The translations under genes and the position numbers were made by a program. This document shows, piece by piece, positions 1,359 to 9,705 of a stretch of DNA of 64,000 nt. The notes beneath the pieces are model-generated. The model did not search any database. It saw nothing but the letters and a program-made list of their open reading frames with translations, and was not told the origin of the DNA. Source of the DNA: Leifsonia sp. TF02-11. Lineage in GTDB: Bacteria; Actinomycetota; Actinomycetes; Actinomycetales; Microbacteriaceae. The stretch's first letter is position 1. The number at the start of each line of letters is the position of its first letter. Location of the stretch: the NCBI RefSeq assembly GCF_017565305.1, contig NZ_JAGEKP010000003.1:62001-126000 (forward strand), given 5' to 3'.

Positions 1359-1417
1359 AAGCGTATCACGGAACCGGACGCCTGCGCCGCCCGCTCCATT
1401 ACGATTGCTGGCGGGAG

Positions 1418-1429
1418 GGAATCGCTTCA
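1418..1429. promoter_or_regulatory. Third, imperfect LacI-type operator over the lacI start
   Basis: GGAATCGCTTCA matches TGAATCGATTCA at 10 of 12 positions and spans the gap between the Shine-Dalgarno sequence (GGGAGGG, 1412-1418) and the ATG at 1429. This suggests autorepression of the regulator. The functional role is inferred. Confidence 0.45.
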
Positions 1430-2439
1430 TGGCTTCTGCAAGCGTCAAAGACGTCGCGGCGCTCGCTCAGGTGTCGGTGGGAACCGTGTCGAACGTGCTC
1501 AACCGCCCCGACATCGTCTCCCCAGAGACCGTCGAGCGGGTGCACCTCGCGATGGAGAAGCTCTCGTACGTGCGCAACGAGGCGGCACGCCAGCTCCGCC
1601 TCGGCCACAGTCAGGCGATCGGCCTCATCTCGCTCAGCGGTGCAAACCCGTTCTTCACCGACGTCGCGACCGCGGCCGAGAACGCGGCATCCGACGCGGG
1701 CTACGAGGTCATCGTCGGCAACAGCAACGAACGCAGCGAGCGCGAGGCCGGCTATCTCAACCTCTTCGAGGAGCTCCGCGTGCGCGGAGTGCTCCTCTCG
1801 CCGGTCGGCGACGTGGCCCCGCGTCTGCGCCGGATGCGCGACCGAGACATCCCCGTCGTCCTGGTCGACCGCGAGAGCAGCGACAGCTCGTTCAGCTCGG
1901 TGACCGTCGACGACGTCGCCGGCGGCGCCCTGGCCGCTCAGCACCTCATCGATACCGGGCGCACGCGCCTCCTGTTCGTGGGAGGCCCCGTCGCCATCCA
2001 ACAGGTGAGCGACCGGCTCGCCGGCGCCCGGTCGGTCGTCGACCAGTACCCCGGCATCGCACTGGAGGAAGTCTTCGGCGACGCGCTCACCGTGCTCGAG
2101 GGCCGCAGGATCGGCCAGACGATCGCCGACCGCGCCCCCGGCGACCGGCCGGACGCGGTCTTCGCCGCCAACGACCTGCTGGCCATCGGCCTCCTGCAGT
2201 CTCTGTTCGTCGGCGGAAGGCTGGCCGTCCCCGACGAGATCGCCCTCGTCGGCTACGACGACATCCTCTTCGCCGGAGCCTCCGTCGTGCCGCTGACCTC
2301 GATCCGGCAGCCGAGCCACCTCATCGGCGAGACCGCCGTCCGGATCCTCCTCGAGGAGGCGGACGACCGGTCGCTGGAGCCGCGGCACATCCGCTACCAG
2401 CCCGAGTTGGTGGTCCGGGAGAGCACGACGCCGCGCTGA
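1429..2439 (+). CDS. LacI family transcriptional regulator
   Basis: A 336-residue repressor with an N-terminal LacI helix-turn-helix (SVKDVAALAQVSVGTVSNVLNRP, residues about 5-27), the hinge region QLRLGHSQAIGLI, and a periplasmic-binding-protein-like effector domain containing VFAANDLLAIGLLQ and the closing segment LTSIRQPSHLIGETAVRILL. Start ATG 1429 follows GGGAGGG with about 10 bases of spacing. An upstream in-frame codon at 1405 has no family sequence in front of it. It is transcribed divergently from the mutarotase/transporter unit and almost certainly binds the TGAATCGATTCA pair. The inducer is unknown, probably L-rhamnose or L-fucose. Confidence 0.95.
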   Translation: MASASVKDVAALAQVSVGTVSNVLNRPDIVSPETVERVHLAMEKLSYVRNEAARQLRLGHSQAIGLISLSGANPFFTDVATAAENAASDAGYEVIVGNSNERSEREAGYLNLFEELRVRGVLLSPVGDVAPRLRRMRDRDIPVVLVDRESSDSSFSSVTVDDVAGGALAAQHLIDTGRTRLLFVGGPVAIQQVSDRLAGARSVVDQYPGIALEEVFGDALTVLEGRRIGQTIADRAPGDRPDAVFAANDLLAIGLLQSLFVGGRLAVPDEIALVGYDDILFAGASVVPLTSIRQPSHLIGETAVRILLEEADDRSLEPRHIRYQPELVVRESTTPR

Positions 2440-2470: not shown

Positions 2471-2659
2471 CCGGGCCGCGCGGTGGGCGGGGTAGGTGCC
2501 GGCGATGACGCCGATCACGGATCCGGGCGCGGGGAGCAGCGACGTCGCACCCAGCGCGCGGCGGAGGCCGATCTCGCCTGATCTCTCCTTGACCGACAGG
2601 ATCGTCACGTCGATGATCCCGAGTGCGCCGAGTTCCTCGCAGCGTCGTCGCACGTACAT
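2471..2659 (-). pseudogene. Remnant of a MacB/FtsX-type ABC transporter permease
   Basis: In one minus-strand frame this stretch reads TILSVKERSGEIGLRRALGA and then, after a gap, GSVIGVIAGTYPAHRAAR. These are the two best-known C-terminal motifs of MacB-like permeases. The transmembrane segments that should lie between and before them are missing, there is no ATPase partner, and the fragment is only about 63 codons. I read it as a decayed relic. It accounts for most of the 326-bp space between the LacI gene and the FAH gene. Confidence 0.6.
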
Positions 2660-2716
2660 CCCGCGAGAGCGGTGGCGACGCGCATCGGATGTCCCTCTCC
2701 CGGACCCGATCTTGGA

Positions 2717-2728
2717 TTCCTATAGGAA
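2717..2728. promoter_or_regulatory. Putative GntR operator 1 (FAH-SDR operon)
   Basis: Perfect 12-bp palindrome TTCCTATAGGAA, 38 bp upstream of the FAH-family start codon. It shares the core TCCTATAGGA with sites at 5777-5792 and 8800-8815, each in front of another gene of the same pathway. Confidence 0.7.
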
Positions 2729-2765
2729 ATAGTAATAGGCTGTAAGTCCCTGCGAAAGGACCCCG

Positions 2766-3617
2766 ATGCGATACATGCGACTCGGCCCCGCCGGCGCGGA
2801 GCTCCCGGTCGTCAGCGACGGCGAGACCGCGTGGGATCTGCGCCCCCTGACGGCCCACATCGACGGCGCCTTCCTGGCCTCCGACGGACTCGCCCGCGCG
2901 GAGGCCGCCGTCCTGGCGGGGACGCTTCCCGCGATCGACACGGCAGGGCTCCGCGTCGGCGCTCCGATCGCCCGCCCGCAGGCGGTCATCTGCATCGGGA
3001 TGAACTATGCGGCACACGCCAGAGAATCCGGAGCCGAGCCGCCGAGCGACATCGTGGTGTTCTACAAGCACCCGAACACCGTGGTCGGGCCGAACGACGA
3101 CATCCTGCTCCCGCCGGGCTCGACGACGACCGACTGGGAGGTGGAGCTCGCGGCCGTCATCGGCACCCGCGCCCGCTACCTCTCCTCCCCCGCCGAGGCG
3201 CTGGGCCACATCGCCGGATTCGCTGTCTCGAACGACGTGTCGGAGCGCGAGTATCAGCTCCAGCGCTCGCTGGGCCAGTGGAGCAAGGGCAAGAGCTTCG
3301 AGACGTTCAATCCGCTCGGCCCCTGGCTCGTGCCGACCGCGGAGGTCGGCGACGGGTCGGGGCTGCGGATCTGGTCCACGGTCGACGGCGAACCCCGGCA
3401 GGACTCGAACACCTCCGACCTGATCTTCGGCGTCGCCGAGATCGTCTACCGGCTCAGCCAGTTCACCGCCCTCGAGCCGGGCGACCTGATCAACACCGGC
3501 ACACCGGAGGGCGTCGGGCTCTCCGGGCGTTTCCCCTACCTCGGCGTCGGCGACGAGGTGCGAATCGGGATCGACGGTCTCGGCGAGCAGGCGAGCACGG
3601 TCCGCGCGGCGCGCTGA
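2766..3617 (+). CDS. Fumarylacetoacetate hydrolase family protein, probable 2,4-diketo-3-deoxy-L-fuconate hydrolase
   Basis: A 283-residue FAH-fold enzyme. Conserved elements are CIGMNYAAHARE (76-87), the metal ligands in DWEVELA (E125, E127) and SNDVSER (D157), the WSKGKSFETFNPLGPWL segment (172-188) and NTGTPEGVGLS near the C-terminus. In the oxidative L-fucose pathway an FAH-family enzyme cleaves 2,4-diketo-3-deoxy-L-fuconate to pyruvate and L-lactate. That role is assigned from the neighbours, since the family also includes acylpyruvases. GAAAGGA lies just upstream. It is first in an operon with the SDR gene, 44 bp downstream, and sits behind the GntR-type palindrome. Confidence 0.85.
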   Translation: MRYMRLGPAGAELPVVSDGETAWDLRPLTAHIDGAFLASDGLARAEAAVLAGTLPAIDTAGLRVGAPIARPQAVICIGMNYAAHARESGAEPPSDIVVFYKHPNTVVGPNDDILLPPGSTTTDWEVELAAVIGTRARYLSSPAEALGHIAGFAVSNDVSEREYQLQRSLGQWSKGKSFETFNPLGPWLVPTAEVGDGSGLRIWSTVDGEPRQDSNTSDLIFGVAEIVYRLSQFTALEPGDLINTGTPEGVGLSGRFPYLGVGDEVRIGIDGLGEQASTVRAAR

Positions 3618-3661: not shown

Positions 3662-4408
3662 TTGTCCGATTTCGAAGGGCTCGTGGCCGCGGTCACGGGT
3701 GGAGCATCCGGCCTCGGCAGGGCCATCGCCGACGAGCTCGCGAGCCGAGGCGCCCGCGTCTACGCGCTCGACCTCGACGCGGCAGCGGTCGCCGCACCCC
3801 ACGTCGGCATCCGCTGCGACATCGGTGACGACGCCAGCGTGCGCTCCGCGATCCAGCAGGTGGCCGCCGACGCCGGCCGGCTCGACATCGTGATCGCCAA
3901 CGCCGGCATCGGCGCCCAGGGCGACGTGGAGGCCAACGACGACGCCGAGTGGACGCGCGTCCTCAACGTCAACGTGATCGGCTCCGCCCGCACCGTCCGA
4001 CACGCGCTTCCCCACCTGAAGGCCTCCCCCTCGCCGGCAGTCGTCTTCACCAGCTCCATCGCCGCGTGGGCCGGCCTCCCCCAGCGCGTGCTCTACTCCG
4101 CCTCCAAAGGCGCCATCTCGGCCATGACCCTCGCGATCGCAGCCGACTGCCTCCCCCTCGGCATCCGCGTCAACGCCGTCGCGCCGGGAACCGCGGACAC
4201 CCCGTGGGTGGGCCGCCTCCTCGACGACGCCGCCGACCCCCACGCCGAACGCGCCGCACTGGAAGCCCGCCAGCCCAGCGGCCGGCTGGTGCAGCCGCAG
4301 GAGGTCGCCGACGCCGTCGCCTACCTCGCCTCGCCACGCTCGACCTCCACCAACGGCGTCATCCTCGCCGTCGACGGCGGCATGTACTCCCTCCGCCCCC
4401 GCCGCTGA
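3662..4408 (+). CDS. SDR family oxidoreductase, probable 2-keto-3-deoxy-L-fuconate dehydrogenase
   Basis: A classical short-chain dehydrogenase of 248 residues. TGGASGLG (12-19) binds the cofactor, the acidic residue at the end of beta 2 (YALDLD) favours NAD, and NAG, the catalytic Ser (FTSSIAAW, about 131), Tyr145 and Lys149 (YSASK) are intact. Translation starts at TTG 3662, five bases after AAGGAGA, and no ATG fits better. In the oxidative fucose route an SDR oxidises the C4 hydroxyl of 2-keto-3-deoxy-L-fuconate to the diketo acid used by the upstream FAH enzyme. The specific substrate is inferred from the operon. Confidence 0.87.
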   Translation: MSDFEGLVAAVTGGASGLGRAIADELASRGARVYALDLDAAAVAAPHVGIRCDIGDDASVRSAIQQVAADAGRLDIVIANAGIGAQGDVEANDDAEWTRVLNVNVIGSARTVRHALPHLKASPSPAVVFTSSIAAWAGLPQRVLYSASKGAISAMTLAIAADCLPLGIRVNAVAPGTADTPWVGRLLDDAADPHAERAALEARQPSGRLVQPQEVADAVAYLASPRSTSTNGVILAVDGGMYSLRPRR

Positions 4409-4491: not shown

Positions 4492-5772
4492 TCAGGGGAG
4501 GTAGCGGTGCGCGTACAGCGACTCGGGCAGCATCTCCATGCCGGTGCCCGGCGTCAGCGGAGCGCGGTAGCGGCCGCCGACCAGCTCGACCGGAGCGACG
4601 AAGTGCTCGTGGAGGTGCTTGGTGTACTCGATCATGCGACCCTCCTGGCTGCCGGAGACCGCGACGAAGTCGAACATCGAGAAGTGCTGCACCGCTTCGC
4701 AGAGCCCCACGCCGCCGGCGTGCGGGCACACCGGTACACCGAACTTCGCGGCCAGCAGCAGGATGGCAAGGTTCTCGTTCACCCCCGCGACGCGCGTCGA
4801 GTCGATCTGCACGATAGCGGTGGCGTCGGCCTGCAGCAGCTGCTTGAACAGCACGCGGCTCATCGCGTGCTCCCCGGTCGCGATGGGCACGGGTGCCACG
4901 GCGCGCGCGATGGCGGCGTGGGCGAGCACGTCGTCGGGACTGGTCGGCTCCTCGACCCAGGCGAGGTCGAACGGCTCGAGTGCGCGGATCCACTCGACGG
5001 CCTGGTCGCGATCCCAGCGCTGGTTCGCGTCGATGGCGATCCGGATGTCGGGTCCGACCTCGTCGCGCGCGATCCGGAGGCGACGCAGGTCGTCCTCCAG
5101 CCGGTCGCCGACTTTGAGCTTGATCTGCAGGAAGCCGTCGTCCACGGCTTCTCGCGCCAGCCTGCGCAGCTTGTCGTCGGAGTACCCGAGCCAGCCGGGC
5201 GTCGTCGTGTAACCGGGATAGCCGGTTGCCAGGATCTCCGCCTCGCGACCGGCGCGGCTGGGCTCCGCCGCGCGCAGGAGCGCGAGCGCATCCTCCGGCG
5301 TCAGCGCGTCGCTGAGGTAGCGGAAGTCGACCAGAGCGACGAGCTCCTCCGGCGTCATCCGCGCGAGGAGCTGCCACAGCGGGAGGCCGGCGCGCTTGGC
5401 CTTGAGATCCCAGAAAGCGTTGACCACGGCGCCGATCGCCATGTGCATGACGCCCTTCTCGGGACCGAGCCAGCGCAGTTGCGAGTCGTAGACGAACTCG
5501 CGCCAGAATCCGCCGAGGTCGTCGAGGATCGCCTCAACGTCGCGCCCGATCACCCGCTGCGCCAGCGCCTCGATGGCCGCGACCTGGACGTCGTTTCCTC
5601 GACCGATGGTGAAGACGAAGGAGTGGCCCTCCAACGCGTCCGGGGCGTCCGTGCGCACGCGCAGGTAGGCGGCGGAGTAGTCGGGGTCGGGGTTCATCGC
5701 GTCCGAGCCGTCGAGGAACGCCGAGGTCTCGAAGCGCACGTCCAGGGTCTCGAAGCCGATCACGGTGCTCAT
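4492..5772 (-). CDS. L-fuconate dehydratase
   Basis: A 426-residue enolase-superfamily enzyme, the length of bacterial FucD and human ENOSF1. All catalytic residues are present: K218 and K220 (IKLKVG), metal ligands D248 (DANQRWD), E274 (WVEEPT) and E301 (ATGEHAM), and H351 ([11 protein letters not shown]). The N-terminal DVRFETS...[16 protein letters not shown] is diagnostic of the fuconate dehydratase subgroup. It dehydrates L-fuconate to 2-keto-3-deoxy-L-fuconate. ATG 5772 is preceded by AGGA inside the palindromic operator at 5777-5792. It lies convergent to the FAH-SDR operon and downstream of gntR on the same strand, with its own promoter. Confidence 0.95.
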
Positions 5773-5886: not shown

Positions 5887-6597
5887 TTACCGGGCCTCGG
5901 CGGCCTTCAGGCTCGACGAGATGCGCGCGTACGACGTGGTGAGATGGTTGCGCATCGCCTTCTCGGCCCGAGGTCCGTCGCCGGCACGCAATGCCTCCAG
6001 CACCGCCTCGTGCTCTCCGGAGGTCTCATCGACGACACCGTGCGTGAAGTAGATGCGGTACTGGTGGAGGTGAGGGCGCAGCCGCACGATCGCGTCGGCC
6101 AGCAGCCCGTTGCCGGAGTGGATGGCGATCAGACGGTGGAACTCGGCATCCTGGTTGGCGAAGTCTTTGTAGTCCTTGAACCGGTCGTCTCCGGAATGCG
6201 ACGCCTGGCCGCTGCGGTGCATGTCTTCGCAGAGCTGCTCGAGCTGATCGAGGGTCTCCGCGTCGATCTCGCCGGCGGCATGGCGGGCGGCGTACGGCTC
6301 CAGCAGCCGCCGCATCTCGAACAGCTCCCGGAGTCCCTCGCTGTCGAGCAACGGCGCGGCCGTGTAGCCCTTGAGCGCCTTCTTCACGACGAGCCCTTCG
6401 GACTCCAGCCGCGCGAGCGCCTCGCGCACCGGCGTGGGTGAGACGCCCAGCTGGCGCGCGATCCCGTCGATGCTTGCGCGGCTGCCCGGCTCGATCACCT
6501 GGTCCATCAGCAAGCCGAGCACCGCGTCGTAGACGTCGTCGGCCAGCGCGCGACGCGCGGGCAGCAAGTGTTCGCCAGCGGAAGGTTCGATGCTCAT
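5887..6597 (-). CDS. GntR family transcriptional regulator (FCD/FadR type)
   Basis: A 236-residue regulator with an N-terminal winged helix (SIDGIARQLGVSPTPVREALARLESEGLV, residues about 42-70) and a C-terminal FCD ligand-binding domain whose metal-binding histidines appear in DAEFHRLI, EHEAVLEAL and MRNHLTTSY. ATG 6597 has AGG eight bases upstream. The ATG at 6603 lacks a usable site. Its position in the middle of the fuconate genes, with matching palindromes in front of three neighbouring units, makes it the probable pathway regulator. FCD regulators usually respond to a small carboxylate, here perhaps L-fuconate or a keto-acid intermediate. Confidence 0.93.
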   Translation of the reverse strand: MSIEPSAGEHLLPARRALADDVYDAVLGLLMDQVIEPGSRASIDGIARQLGVSPTPVREALARLESEGLVVKKALKGYTAAPLLDSEGLRELFEMRRLLEPYAARHAAGEIDAETLDQLEQLCEDMHRSGQASHSGDDRFKDYKDFANQDAEFHRLIAIHSGNGLLADAIVRLRPHLHQYRIYFTHGVVDETSGEHEAVLEALRAGDGPRAEKAMRNHLTTSYARISSSLKAAEAR

Positions 6598-6627
6598 GTG
6601 CACATCCTAGGCTCGCGAGCCCGATCG

Positions 6628-7611
6628 CTAGAGGAAAGAGGATGCAGGATCGACGGGAGCGATCAGACGCTCCGCATCCAACTCGGCCCAGAGCGCAGCC
6701 GGAACGTCAGGCGCGGCCAGGGCGGCGTTGCGGACGATCTGCTCCGGGGTGTCCGCGCCGAGCACGACGGTTGAGACCGCGGGATGCCGGAGCGGGAATT
6801 GCACCGCCAACTGCGGGAGCGTGACGCCGTAGAGTGCGGCGACATCGGCGATCCGGTCGACGCGTCGGATCAGCGCTTCCGGGGCCGCGGCGTAGTCGAA
6901 CGTCGCCCCGGCGACAGGCCGATCGGTGGCGAGGAGGCCGGAGTTGAACACCGCCGCGACCACCACCTGCACGCCGCGCTCCTCCGCCGCCGGCAGCAGA
7001 TCGGCCGCAGCCGTGCCGTCCAGCAGCGTGTACCTGCCCGCGCACATGACGATGTCGAGGTCGGTCTCCCGAACGAACCGCGACAGCATCGCGGACTGGT
7101 TCATCCCGGCACCGTAGGCGCGGATCACGCCTTGCGACCGCAGCTCCGCCAGGGCGGGGAAGGCGCCGTCGAGCGCCTCCCGTTCGTGGTCGTCGGGATC
7201 GTGGACGAACAGGATGTCGATGCGGTCGAGACCGAGCCGGGTCAGGGAGTCCTCCACGGACCGCAGCACGCCGTCGCGGGAGAAGTCGAAGCGGCGCCGC
7301 AGCGTCGACGGCACGTCGAACAGGTTGCCGATGTCGCTCTGGCCCGGGCGGTAGTCCGGGTTCGGTTCCAGCAGGCGGCCGATCTTGGTCGACACCACGT
7401 ACTCGTCTCGCGGCAGGCCGCGCAGGCCTTCGCCGAGCCGCTCCTCCGCCAGCCCGAGCCCGTAGTGGGGTGCGACGTCGAAGTAGCGGATCCCGGCCTC
7501 CCACGCGGCGGGGATGATCGCCGGCCACACGTCGTCCGGGCGAGCGGCGTACAGATTGCCGAGCGCGGCGACGCCGTACCCGATCGCGCCCAGCTCCACG
7601 CTCGTCATCAT
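6628..7611 (-). CDS. Aldo/keto reductase, probable L-fucose (D-threo-aldose) 1-dehydrogenase
   Basis: A 327-residue aldo-keto reductase with the catalytic tetrad D45, Y50 (YFDVAPHYG), K76 (STKIGRLL) and H137 (ILFVHDPDD). The motif ALGNLY near residue 20 and the YFDVAPHYGLGLAEERLGEGL segment are typical of the D-threo-aldose/L-fucose dehydrogenase group, which oxidises L-fucose to L-fuconolactone. The ATG at 7611 overlaps the TGA of the upstream enolase-superfamily gene (ATGA), so the two are translationally coupled. It would supply the first oxidative step of the pathway. D-arabinose or L-galactose are alternative substrates known for this group. Confidence 0.88.
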   Translation of the reverse strand: MMTSVELGAIGYGVAALGNLYAARPDDVWPAIIPAAWEAGIRYFDVAPHYGLGLAEERLGEGLRGLPRDEYVVSTKIGRLLEPNPDYRPGQSDIGNLFDVPSTLRRRFDFSRDGVLRSVEDSLTRLGLDRIDILFVHDPDDHEREALDGAFPALAELRSQGVIRAYGAGMNQSAMLSRFVRETDLDIVMCAGRYTLLDGTAAADLLPAAEERGVQVVVAAVFNSGLLATDRPVAGATFDYAAAPEALIRRVDRIADVAALYGVTLPQLAVQFPLRHPAVSTVVLGADTPEQIVRNAALAAPDVPAALWAELDAERLIAPVDPASSFL

Positions 7612-8744
7612 GCCACGCGACGGTCGTCGATCGCGTCGAAGTCCCAGTCGATCCCGAGCCCCGGGGCGACGGGCGCCACGCCGTGCCCGTCGCGGATGAC
7701 GAGTTCTCGCTTCGTCACGGCGCGCAGCTGCGGGATGTGCTCCAGATAGAGCGCGTTCGGCACCGCGCAGCAGAGCGACACGTGGAGCTCCATGAGGAAG
7801 TGCGGCGCGACCGCGACGTTGAACGACTCGGCCAGGTGCGCGACCTTGAGCCACGGCGTGATTCCGCCGACCCGCGCGACGTCCACCTGCAGGATGGAGG
7901 CCGCACCGGTCTGCAGGTACTCGCGGAAGTGCCCGACCGAGTAGAGCGACTCGCCCACCGCGACCGGGAGCGTCGTCGACGCGGCCAGCCGGCGGTGGCC
8001 CGCGACGTCCTCCGCCGGAAGCGGCTCCTCGAACCAGAAGATGTCCAGCGGTTCGAAGAGTGCCGCCCGGCGGATGGCCTCCGCTGCGGTCAGCGACTGG
8101 TTGGCGTCGACCATGAGGTCCATGCCAGGCCCGACCGCGGCGCGCACGGCCGCGAGGCGCTCGGCATCCTCGTGGCCGCGCGGCTTGCCGACCTTGATCT
8201 TCACGCCGCCCAGCCCGCGCCGCTGCGACTCGAGCGCCTGGGCGACCAGCTCGTCGGTGTCGAAGTGCAGCCAGCCGCCCTCGGTGTCGTAGAGCGGGAT
8301 GCTCGGCCGCGCGCCGCCGGCGGCGACCCACAGGGGAAGCCCGGAGGCCTTGCACCGCGCATCCCAGACGGCGGTGTCCACGGCGGCGAGCGCCAACGAC
8401 GTGATCGCGCCGACCGTGGTCGCTCGCGTCGCCGAGAAGAGCGCCCGCCAGACGGCCTCCGGGCGGTGGGCGTCCAACCCGATCAGCACGTCGAGCAGGC
8501 ACGTGCGCAGCAGGCTGAGCACAGCCTCGCCTCCGGTGCCGATCGTGTAGCTGTAGCCGATGCCCTCAACGCCGCCCGCGGTGCGGAGGCGGACGAAGAT
8601 CGTCTCCTGCTTGAGGAAGGACTGCACGGCGTCGGTCCGGACGGTCTCGACCTCGAGGTCGCTCAGCCATGCCTCCGCGCTGACGATGGTGCCGTCGACG
8701 GCCGTGTGGGAGGCGGGGGCGAGGTGGGGCGGCGCGGGTGTCAC
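7608..8744 (-). CDS. Mandelate racemase/muconate lactonizing enzyme family protein (second dehydratase of the cluster)
   Basis: A 378-residue enolase-superfamily protein of the MR subgroup: KxK base pair K182/K184 (VKIKVG), metal ligands D213 (VDANQS), E239 (WFEEP) and E265 (VGESL), and the second base dyad D288 (QVDVARVGG) and H315 (APHFLMELH). It is clearly distinct from the fuconate dehydratase 3 kb away. The substrate is unknown. Sugar-acid dehydratase or lactone cycloisomerase are the likeliest roles. GTG 8744 has AAGGAG about 10 bases upstream. It is divergent from the amidohydrolase across a GntR-type palindrome, and its stop overlaps the start of the aldo-keto reductase. Confidence 0.88.
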   Translation of the reverse strand: MTPAPPHLAPASHTAVDGTIVSAEAWLSDLEVETVRTDAVQSFLKQETIFVRLRTAGGVEGIGYSYTIGTGGEAVLSLLRTCLLDVLIGLDAHRPEAVWRALFSATRATTVGAITSLALAAVDTAVWDARCKASGLPLWVAAGGARPSIPLYDTEGGWLHFDTDELVAQALESQRRGLGGVKIKVGKPRGHEDAERLAAVRAAVGPGMDLMVDANQSLTAAEAIRRAALFEPLDIFWFEEPLPAEDVAGHRRLAASTTLPVAVGESLYSVGHFREYLQTGAASILQVDVARVGGITPWLKVAHLAESFNVAVAPHFLMELHVSLCCAVPNALYLEHIPQLRAVTKRELVIRDGHGVAPVAPGLGIDWDFDAIDDRRVA

Positions 8745-8799
8745 GGGGCGGACTCTCCTTCGCGTGGATCGCGGGTCGGGGATCTTTCGGCCAAAGCCT

Positions 8800-8815
8800 A
8801 TTGCCTATAGGATAT
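8800..8815. promoter_or_regulatory. Putative GntR operator 3 (divergent promoter)
   Basis: ATTGCCTATAGGATAT contains the perfect core CCTATAGG with flanking half-site GGATAT, identical to an arm of operator 2. It lies in the 130-bp divergent region between the MR-family gene and the amidohydrolase and could control both directions. Confidence 0.7.
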
Positions 8816-8874
8816 GGAGAGTCCGTGTGATCCACAATCGATACATCCACCGCGCTTTCGAGGAGGAGCCGACC

Positions 8875-9705
8875 ATGACCGTCGACGCCCACCTCCATCT
8901 CTGGGACCTGGAGCGGGTCGCGTACCCCTGGTTGACCGAGGCGCTGGCACCGATCGACCGCACATTCGCTTTCGGAGAAGCCCAACCCCAGCTGGAGCGG
9001 GCGGGTGTCGACCGAGTCGTCCTGGTGCAGGCCGCGAACTCGGTGGAGGACTCGGCCGCGATGTTCGCGGTGTCCTCCCCGATGGTCGCGGGTGTCGTGG
9101 CCTGGGTCGACCTGCTCGACCCTGCCACGGCCTCCCGTCAGCTCGACGCGTGGTCGGAGCATCCCTCGTTCGTCGGCGTGCGGCATCTGATCCACGACGA
9201 GCCGGACCCCGACTGGCTCGGGCGGCCGGTGGTGCGCTCGTCGCTCGGGCTGCTGGCGGCACGCGGTCTGACCTTCGACGTGATCGGGGTGCTCCCCCGC
9301 CACCTGGAACACGCGATGGCACTGGCCGACGAATACCCGTCGCTGCAGCTCGTGATCGACCATCTCGGCACCCCGCCGGTCGGCGCAGCGACGGCGGAAC
9401 CGTGGGCGGGCCTGCTCACGGAACTCGCGCGCCGCCCGAACGTCTCCGTCAAGCTCTCCGGCCTGACCACGCTCCGCGGCGGCTCGGACGCTCCCCGACT
9501 GCGGCCATACGTCGAGCACGCCCTCGAGGCGTTCGGCGCGTCCCGCGTGCTCTACGGCGGCGACTGGCCGGTGTCGACGCTCGTGGGCTCCTATGCGCAG
9601 ACGCGGGCGGTCGCCGACGAACTGCTCGCCGGGGCGTCCGCGGAGGAGCGAGCCGAGGTGTTCGCGCACTCGGCCGAGCGGGCGTATCGGCTGCCGACGG
9701 GCTGA
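8875..9705 (+). CDS. Amidohydrolase family protein, probable L-fuconolactone hydrolase
   Basis: A 276-residue amidohydrolase-2 family protein with the N-terminal metal motif DAHLHLWD (H6, H8), followed by VIDHLGTPP, SVKLSGL and the C-terminal YGGDWPVS aspartate motif. This is the pattern of the metal-light sugar lactonases such as L-rhamnono- and L-fuconolactonase. ATG 8875 follows the strong site GAGGAGGAG. The reading frame is open further upstream but without family sequence. It would hydrolyse L-fuconolactone, made by the aldo-keto reductase, to L-fuconate. The first and second steps are thus on opposite sides of a shared operator region. Confidence 0.88.
   Translation: MTVDAHLHLWDLERVAYPWLTEALAPIDRTFAFGEAQPQLERAGVDRVVLVQAANSVEDSAAMFAVSSPMVAGVVAWVDLLDPATASRQLDAWSEHPSFVGVRHLIHDEPDPDWLGRPVVRSSLGLLAARGLTFDVIGVLPRHLEHAMALADEYPSLQLVIDHLGTPPVGAATAEPWAGLLTELARRPNVSVKLSGLTTLRGGSDAPRLRPYVEHALEAFGASRVLYGGDWPVSTLVGSYAQTRAVADELLAGASAEERAEVFAHSAERAYRLPTG

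Follow-up and report, generated by a model that had tools for sequence, protein, structure and literature searches.

A second enolase-superfamily protein in an actinobacterial L-fucose island and its candidate role in 6-deoxy-L-hexonate dehydration

We analysed a 64,000-nucleotide stretch of the Leifsonia sp. TF02-11 genome (contig NZ_JAGEKP010000003.1, positions 62,001 to 126,000; hereafter the window), in which an island of L-fucose genes encodes two enolase-superfamily proteins. One is an L-fuconate dehydratase (FucD). The other, the subject of this work, is a protein of the mandelate racemase subgroup at 7608..8744 on the minus strand, for which we use the working name MR. We directly establish the protein, its catalytic residues, its place outside the groups tested, its linkage to fucose and transporter genes and its co-occurrence with FucD. 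From these we infer its reaction, substrate and direction, and we propose, tentatively and with less than even confidence, that MR dehydrates, and possibly also epimerises at C-2, a 6-deoxy-L-hexonate close to L-fuconate. The first candidate substrate is 6-deoxy-L-talonate, the C-2 epimer of L-fuconate. Other island enzymes are referred to as AKR (aldo/keto reductase), SDR (short-chain dehydrogenase) and FAH (FAH-family hydrolase). In the literature searched by titles, abstract openings and passages, no publication on this second enzyme was found.

Catalytic residues and specificity loops of MR

MR is an open frame of 378 amino acids with a GTG start, and its conserved core starts near residue 19. 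It scores 223.9 bits against Pfam MR_MLE_C and 60.4 bits against MR_MLE_N, both above cut-off, and its AlphaFold2 model has a mean pLDDT of 91.5. The protein has the N- and C-terminal domains of the enolase superfamily and the residues of the mandelate racemase subgroup, namely K-x-K, D-x-N, two glutamates, a D-H pair and a C-terminal glutamate. A first-pass annotation had described a protein of this subgroup with K182, K184, D213, E239, E265, D288 and H315, and all of these are at the positions claimed.

The alignment comprised 109 MR, 61 FucD and 8 sequences of the L-talarate/galactarate dehydratase (TalrD) type, of which 106, 59 and 8 are distinct. Nine catalytic positions, K182, K184, D213, N215, E239, E265, D288, H315 and E335, are identical in every sequence of the three groups, and the same nine are invariant in a separate alignment of 29 orthologues. 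The active site, which the first-pass annotation had called intact and different, is indeed intact but not different, as the nine positions are those of FucD. MR and FucD differ in the capping-domain loops, in overall sequence and in length (378 versus 426 amino acids), with 31% identity in a structural alignment of MR to FucD 1yey.

Capping and barrel loops set substrate specificity in the enolase superfamily. The 20s loop of MR has the consensus RTDAVQSFLKQET, and FucD has a different stretch there. In the 50s loop, T-I-G (T67-I68-G69) is found in 109/109 MR and 58/61 FucD sequences, and S-K-R in 8/8 of the TalrD type and 0/109 MR; the loop of 3,6-anhydro-L-galactonate cycloisomerase (ACI) is T-G-G, with T67 and G69 common to MR and ACI. 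W158 is present in all MR and all FucD and is F in TalrD. MR has YDTEGGWLH as its first barrel strand, where FucD has YTTSPGWLG and TalrD YNTSGGFLH. Among well-conserved positions, 13 group MR with FucD against TalrD and 26 group MR with TalrD against FucD. By sequence, MR appears globally TalrD-like with some loop positions FucD-like, several of which (T67, G69 and others) are also ACI-like.

Placement of MR among characterised families

The first-pass annotation had left room for MR to group with a subgroup of known, unrelated function; among the groups at hand, it lies in none. A search of the Protein Data Bank (PDB) with the single sequence gives 2og9 (238 bits), TalrD 2pp0 (221) and ACI 5xd7 (209) at the top, and with an orthologue profile 5xd7 and 2pp0 are level at 289.8 and 288.8 bits. 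The best VIA matches of the AlphaFold2 model are 3cb3 (Z 49.4; 1.6 A, 360 residues), 2pp0 (48.9) and 5xd7 (48.9; 1.8 A, 357 residues), followed by 2ovl (48.5), 4h19 (47.7), mandelate racemase (46.8) and FucD (43.5). The top matches are tied and, as modelled, appear to share one common fold, which does not show a function.

None of the NCBIfam models listed for MR reaches its own cut-off. The best match, NF047820 TalGalacDh, scores 283.7 bits versus a cut-off of 500. The other scores are 80.2 bits for L-rhamnonate dehydratase (NF011968, cut-off 393), 140.9 of the 311 needed for D-galactonate (NF010624), 140.4 of 550 for D-mannonate (NF043051) and 127.3 of 650 for archaeal arabinonate dehydratase (NF040866). 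In a tree of 182 sequences rooted on FucD, all 109 MR form one clade (support 0.70) with a long stem and no FucD inside, and the 8 TalrD-type sequences form a separate clade (support 1.0). ACI, for which 5xd7 is the only sequence in the tree, lies outside the MR clade, as do three other homologues. Tree distances from MR are 3.1-3.3 to FucD versus 2.4-2.6 to ACI and TalrD. The apparent placement of MR outside ACI is weakened by the moderate support value and by the use of a single ACI sequence. On curated cut-offs, tree and loop motifs we rejected MR as TalrD/GalrD, ACI, FucD or rhamnonate dehydratase.

The likeness of MR to TalrD (2pp0, 2og9/3cb3; NF047820) consists of VIA Z scores of 48.5-49.4, 34-37% identity in structural alignment, the nine catalytic positions and a similar first barrel strand. 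MR is nonetheless under the family cut-off, carries T-I-G and not S-K-R, forms a separate clade and has a fucose context, whereas eight loci of other MR-family proteins (six of them S-K-R or neighbours of it) have no fucose partners. Beside one TalrD-type homologue (L107) is a 307-amino-acid frame at 2658-3581 (+) that by eye is like 5-dehydro-4-deoxyglucarate dehydratase, as would be expected if the S-K-R loop group acts on aldarates.

ACI has the best PDB profile score, level with TalrD, a Z of 48.9, T67 and G69, and an L-galacto-type substrate in common with the proposal for MR. It differs in the 20s loop, the remaining 50s loop, the first barrel strand and its position outside the MR clade, and a 3,6-anhydro ring is impossible in a 6-deoxy sugar. 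The characterised ACI is SCO3480 of S. coelicolor, a 3,6-anhydro-L-galactonate cycloisomerase according to passages of PMC9706016. With FucD/ENOSF1 (2hne, 2hxu, 4a35) MR shares the catalytic residues, T-I-G (58/61), a GWL motif and operon partners; it differs by about 31% identity, a Z of 43.5, the shorter chain (378 versus 426 amino acids), a separate clade and the presence of both enzymes together in all MR genomes tested. For SAR202 Chloroflexota, passages of PMC10444878 propose parallel enolase-superfamily paralogues for fucose, rhamnose and their acids. There too MR-family enzymes are paired with dehydrogenases in non-phosphorylative sugar-acid routes, but by the same passages the expansion is within genomes (80 paralogues), while here we see a single conserved, fucose-linked orthologue group.

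Linkage of MR to fucose and transporter genes

Orthologues of MR (55-100% identity, E < 1e-130) occur in 27 of the 299 genomes of its family, its own included, and the next full-length matches are at 41% identity. A scan of named genomes confirmed at least 583 stretches as relatives, which may count some genes twice, and the best 80 (62-93% identity) were kept. Genera among these best 80 of 583 are Leifsonia, Microbacterium, Agromyces, Kribbella, Micromonospora, Actinoplanes, Planotetraspora, Nonomuraea, Amycolatopsis and Streptomyces, together with Chloroflexi such as Ktedonobacter. In a phylum sample of 396 genomes the orthologue was found in its own genome only, so the distribution is scattered. 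Because the collection scan gave 80 orthologues from many genera, we do not take the phylum sample to mean real confinement.

In the window, the MR stop codon overlaps the start of AKR (GTG GCA TGA with an internal ATG). A second ATG of AKR follows directly after the first; with the first as start the two genes share 4 bases, with the second 1. The ATGA coupling to the sugar dehydrogenase gene (6628-7611, -) reported in the first-pass annotation is therefore present in the sequence.

Of 108 MR loci, 27 with less than 7 kb on one side were excluded, and the 81 flanked by 7 kb or more on each side were used; in five loci (L149, L157, L170, L172 and L182) MR was found by tblastn and not by the gene caller. 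AKR, lactonase, SDR, FAH, FucD, GH29, GH95 and mutarotase were counted as fucose partners. At least one partner is present in 62/81 loci and at least two in 45/81, and a relative of the GntR regulator (at least 35% identity) in 70/81. Three loci are duplicated (L047/L117, L050/L158 and L055/L183), and without the three duplicates these counts become 59/78, 42/78 and 67/78. Excluding mutarotase from the partners leaves 56/81 loci positive. Chance was rejected as the source of this neighbourhood, as 20 arbitrary 20-kb stretches had a partner in 1/20 and a GntR relative in 0/20, and loci of other MR-family proteins had a partner in 0/8. The arbitrary stretches come from 15 MR-bearing genomes of the family, and the MR loci span more groups. 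Nine loci of non-orthologous MR-family proteins were obtained, of which L072 was left out (it has no partner); the contig of control locus L074 is just 7.5 kb long.

Several arrangements recur. In Leifsonia and relatives, GH29 fucosidases and an ABC importer are followed by MR, AKR, GntR and FucD. A second arrangement has GntR and then a CUT2-type importer with MR second, continued in several genomes by AKR, lactonase, FAH, FucD and SDR. In a third, MR is followed by a metabolite/H+-symporter-like gene (TIGR00883 374 bits for the L051 copy, cut-off 443), FAH and SDR, once with LutABC behind. The fourth runs from a CocE-like hydrolase through MR, mutarotase and lactonase to AKR; in the divergent 55-57% clade (L063, L065 and L066) the gene before MR encodes a CocE/NonD-family hydrolase, the family name being that of L063. 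In 73/108 MR loci a same-strand gene no more than 600 bp away encodes a transporter, and importer, MR and mutarotase form one gene run in three Streptomyces loci (L161, L166 and L177). Two Streptomyces loci, L144 and L162, have a 2-dehydropantoate-reductase-like gene before MR (the L144 copy is 80% identical to that of L162), and by eye aldehyde:ferredoxin oxidoreductase-like proteins lie near MR in L142 (ORF 17.6 kb) and L164 (ORF 8.1 kb).

LutABC-like genes for L-lactate oxidation are present in 5/81 MR loci. The LutB model TIGR00273 gives 442 bits in L162 and 436 bits in L178, narrowly missing the cut-off of 444.8, and LUD and cysteine-rich domains are found in the LutABC-like genes of L162. 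In L162 these genes are directly behind MR, symporter, FAH and SDR, and in L178 directly before MR. FucD is in the same cluster as MR and LutABC in L139 and L143.

FucD is present in 27/27 MR-bearing genomes of the family versus 108/299 overall (hypergeometric 1.1e-13) and in 47/81 genomes with only other MR-family matches (Fisher 7e-6 versus MR genomes). It is also present in 48/48 named MR genomes tested; these 48 come out of 80 loci, and the two sets overlap by one genome (Compostimonas) or more. FucD is not always close by, as 25/81 MR loci have AKR, lactonase, SDR or FAH and no FucD within the 7-10 kb seen. In the 18 genomes (20 stretches) in which FucD away from MR was inspected, it stands in several cases with another partner set and in others alone. 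In Micromonospora and Microtetraspora (L139, L143 and L129), MR and FucD belong to a single run of genes on one strand.

A candidate reaction for MR and its alternatives

In the mechanism we propose, Mg2+ held by D213, E239 and E265 would bind the substrate carboxylate, and K184 or the D288-H315 pair would abstract the proton at C-2, yielding an enediolate. Loss of the 3-OH and tautomerisation of the enol would then lead to 2-keto-3-deoxy-L-fuconate. Since C-2 and C-3 lose their stereochemistry on dehydration, the product of MR would be the same as that of FucD from L-fuconate and could enter the same route, through SDR and then the FAH hydrolase to pyruvate and L-lactate. For the oxidation of the parent sugar, the pathway would rely on the same AKR and lactonase. 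The L162 operon of MR, symporter, FAH, SDR and LutABC lacks FucD, which makes MR its dehydratase candidate. From pathway chemistry, L-lactate should be formed only if carbon 6 is a methyl group, which favours a 6-deoxy acid, and LutABC beside 5/81 MR loci weakly points to such a substrate. Rhamnonate is made unlikely in this genome by the phosphorylative rhamnose operon next door.

Several observations weigh against this proposal. We know of no activity for any MR member. LutABC is rare, with a LutB score just under the cut-off, and since L139 and L143 hold both LutABC and FucD, it may serve the fucose branch. The overall sequence of MR is nearer to TalrD and ACI than to FucD, and with T67 and G69 also in ACI, T-I-G is no private mark of FucD. 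No core partner was seen in 19/81 flanked loci. The MR loci are not independent, many being close relatives, and the co-occurrence statistics ignore the relatedness of the genomes. Finding FucD in every MR genome tested would also be expected of an isozyme, of a pure 2-epimerase or from simple ecological co-selection. Finally, passages of PMC13406643 give the Xanthomonas FucD residual activity on L-talonate too, so the C-2 epimer might not need MR.

It is in our view unlikely that MR is an isozyme of FucD, meaning a non-orthologous second L-fuconate dehydratase that differs in kinetics, regulation or stereochemical face. In favour are catalytic residues that are those of FucD and a T-I-G loop that is mostly the same. 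An isozyme would also suit Amycolatopsis taiwanensis (L178), where MR is the sole dehydratase candidate seen with AKR, lactonase, SDR, FAH and LutABC, FucD being on another contig. Against it, FucD is missing from none of the MR genomes tested (27/27 and 48/48), and MR and FucD in one same-strand run (L139, L143 and L129) would be odd for redundant enzymes. If MR is an isozyme, the finding is an ordinary one.

The first-pass annotation had suggested that the pathway processes a second aldonate from the same entry enzymes, such as L-galactonate or D-arabinonate. The core of this suggestion holds, as a second enolase-superfamily enzyme is embedded in the fucose island and is accompanied in other genomes by the same kinds of dehydrogenase, lactonase and downstream enzymes. 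The example substrates are weakened: according to passages of PMC13406643, L-fuconate is the relevant substrate of Xanthomonas FucD, which has residual activity on L-galactonate and D-arabinonate, so that a second enzyme is not strictly needed for those. That this activity is described as residual also leaves room for a dedicated enzyme, and the nearest solved relatives of AKR are L-galactose dehydrogenases, while ACI, among the nearest relatives of MR, uses 3,6-anhydro-L-galactonate. However, such acids should give glycerate or glycolate, which misfits LutABC at 5/81 loci. We consider L-galactonate, D-arabinonate or the like improbable as the substrate. General considerations make the lactone isomerisation step raised in the same annotation unlikely. 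Enzymes of the enolase superfamily require a free carboxylate adjoining the proton they abstract, which fuconolactone lacks, and a lactonase gene is already present.

MR as a 2-epimerase only, turning the C-2 epimer into L-fuconate for FucD to dehydrate, is a less probable reading still. Both general bases it would use, K184 and H315, are present, and it predicts the strict co-occurrence with FucD that was found. However, the 25/81 loci without nearby FucD, above all those with MR, symporter, FAH and SDR, are more simply read as dehydratase operons. An aldarate dehydratase or cycloisomerase merely travelling with fucose genes would account for the tied nearest folds of TalrD (3cb3) and ACI (5xd7) and the best NCBIfam match, NF047820, but we regard it as very improbable given 283.7 bits versus 500, S-K-R in 0/109 MR, an MR clade that excludes TalrD and ACI, and fucose partners at 0/8 other MR-family loci.

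As a 6-deoxy-L-hexonate dehydratase, MR might belong to a conserved but unrecognised branch of the fucose regulon in actinobacteria and some Chloroflexi, an extension that we put forward as speculation more likely to fail than to hold. The branch would consist of a dedicated importer, often a mutarotase, and a new isofunctional MR-subgroup clade dehydrating, and maybe epimerising, the acid derived from a rare 6-deoxy-L-hexose, with 6-deoxy-L-talose the simplest choice, and would merge with the known route at 2-keto-3-deoxy-L-fuconate. If true, a widespread orthologue group that no curated model names would gain a tight function, and non-phosphorylative fucose catabolism a second entry point, with one fold reused for stereoisomers within a single pathway. 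A run of importer, MR and mutarotase would suffice for an existing fucose route to take on a further sugar, and these bacteria would meet a sugar absent from the usual lists. With its clear pathway context, MR is a real and conserved addition to a well-known superfamily, useful to specialists rather than surprising.

The fucose island in the window and its surroundings

AKR (6628..7611, minus strand; Pfam Aldo_ket_red) is a probable L-fucose (L-galactose type) 1-dehydrogenase, with L-galactose dehydrogenases as its closest solved chains (7ezi, 126 bits). It is followed on the same strand by a GntR/FCD regulator (5887..6603), assigned from domain matches, and by FucD (4492..5772, 426 amino acids). 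The best solved relative of FucD is the L-fuconate dehydratase 2hne (612 bits over 421 residues), in agreement with the first-pass annotation, which had given the island a fuconate dehydratase of its own. On the plus strand are SDR (3662..4408), with a short-chain dehydrogenase domain and, from its place in the island, a probable 2-keto-3-deoxy-L-fuconate 4-dehydrogenase, and FAH (2766..3617), a probable 2,4-diketo-3-deoxy-L-fuconate hydrolase (PF01557; NF053535 251 bits, below the cut-off of 500). An Amidohydrolase_2 lactonase of the L-fucono-1,5-lactonase type (8875..9705, plus strand) is divergent from MR; it scores 161 bits with PF04909 and 173 bits with NF052480, below the cut-off of 400, and its start at 8875 was set by comparison with a relative. 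The NCBIfam matches of lactonase and FAH are correctly named but under cut-off, and their roles therefore rest on the whole island. Together, the enzymes appear to be the set expected for conversion of L-fucose to pyruvate and L-lactate.

A LacI-family regulator (1405..2439, plus strand), recognised by domain matches, marks the island edge. At the left edge of the window are a mutarotase (995-1399) and, by eye, an MFS-like gene (1-918). Both run on into a phosphorylative L-rhamnose operon adjoining the window outside its left edge (L077), and their membership of the fuconate set is therefore not evident. In that operon RhaI (632 bits, cut-off 531) and a bifunctional aldolase (1010 bits, cut-off 568) are above cut-off, TIGR02635 and TIGR02632 being the models passed, and a rhamnulokinase-like gene is under it (375 bits, cut-off 528).

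In the closest relatives (L039 and L108), lactonase and MR are set apart by five genes, which code for two GH29 fucosidases, two permeases and a binding protein. In the window lactonase and MR are direct neighbours, separated by 8745-8874 without the five genes. In this genome, an assembly of 50 contigs, no full GH29 was found, a single partial match scoring 29 bits, and the best match to the importer binding protein is 29% identical. The simplest reading is loss of the GH29 and ABC importer genes in this lineage.

A second cluster in the same genome (L239, G000 contig C27, 11.4-20.0 kb) has FAH, SDR, lactonase, ABC importer and AKR genes, with a GntR-like regulator (by eye) and a third type of enolase-superfamily protein, in which K-x-H (KLHAWG) takes the place of K-x-K. 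Locus L045 also encodes a protein with the KLHAWG-type K-x-H motif, two genes upstream of MR; among solved chains, 1rvk is closest to it (168 bits).

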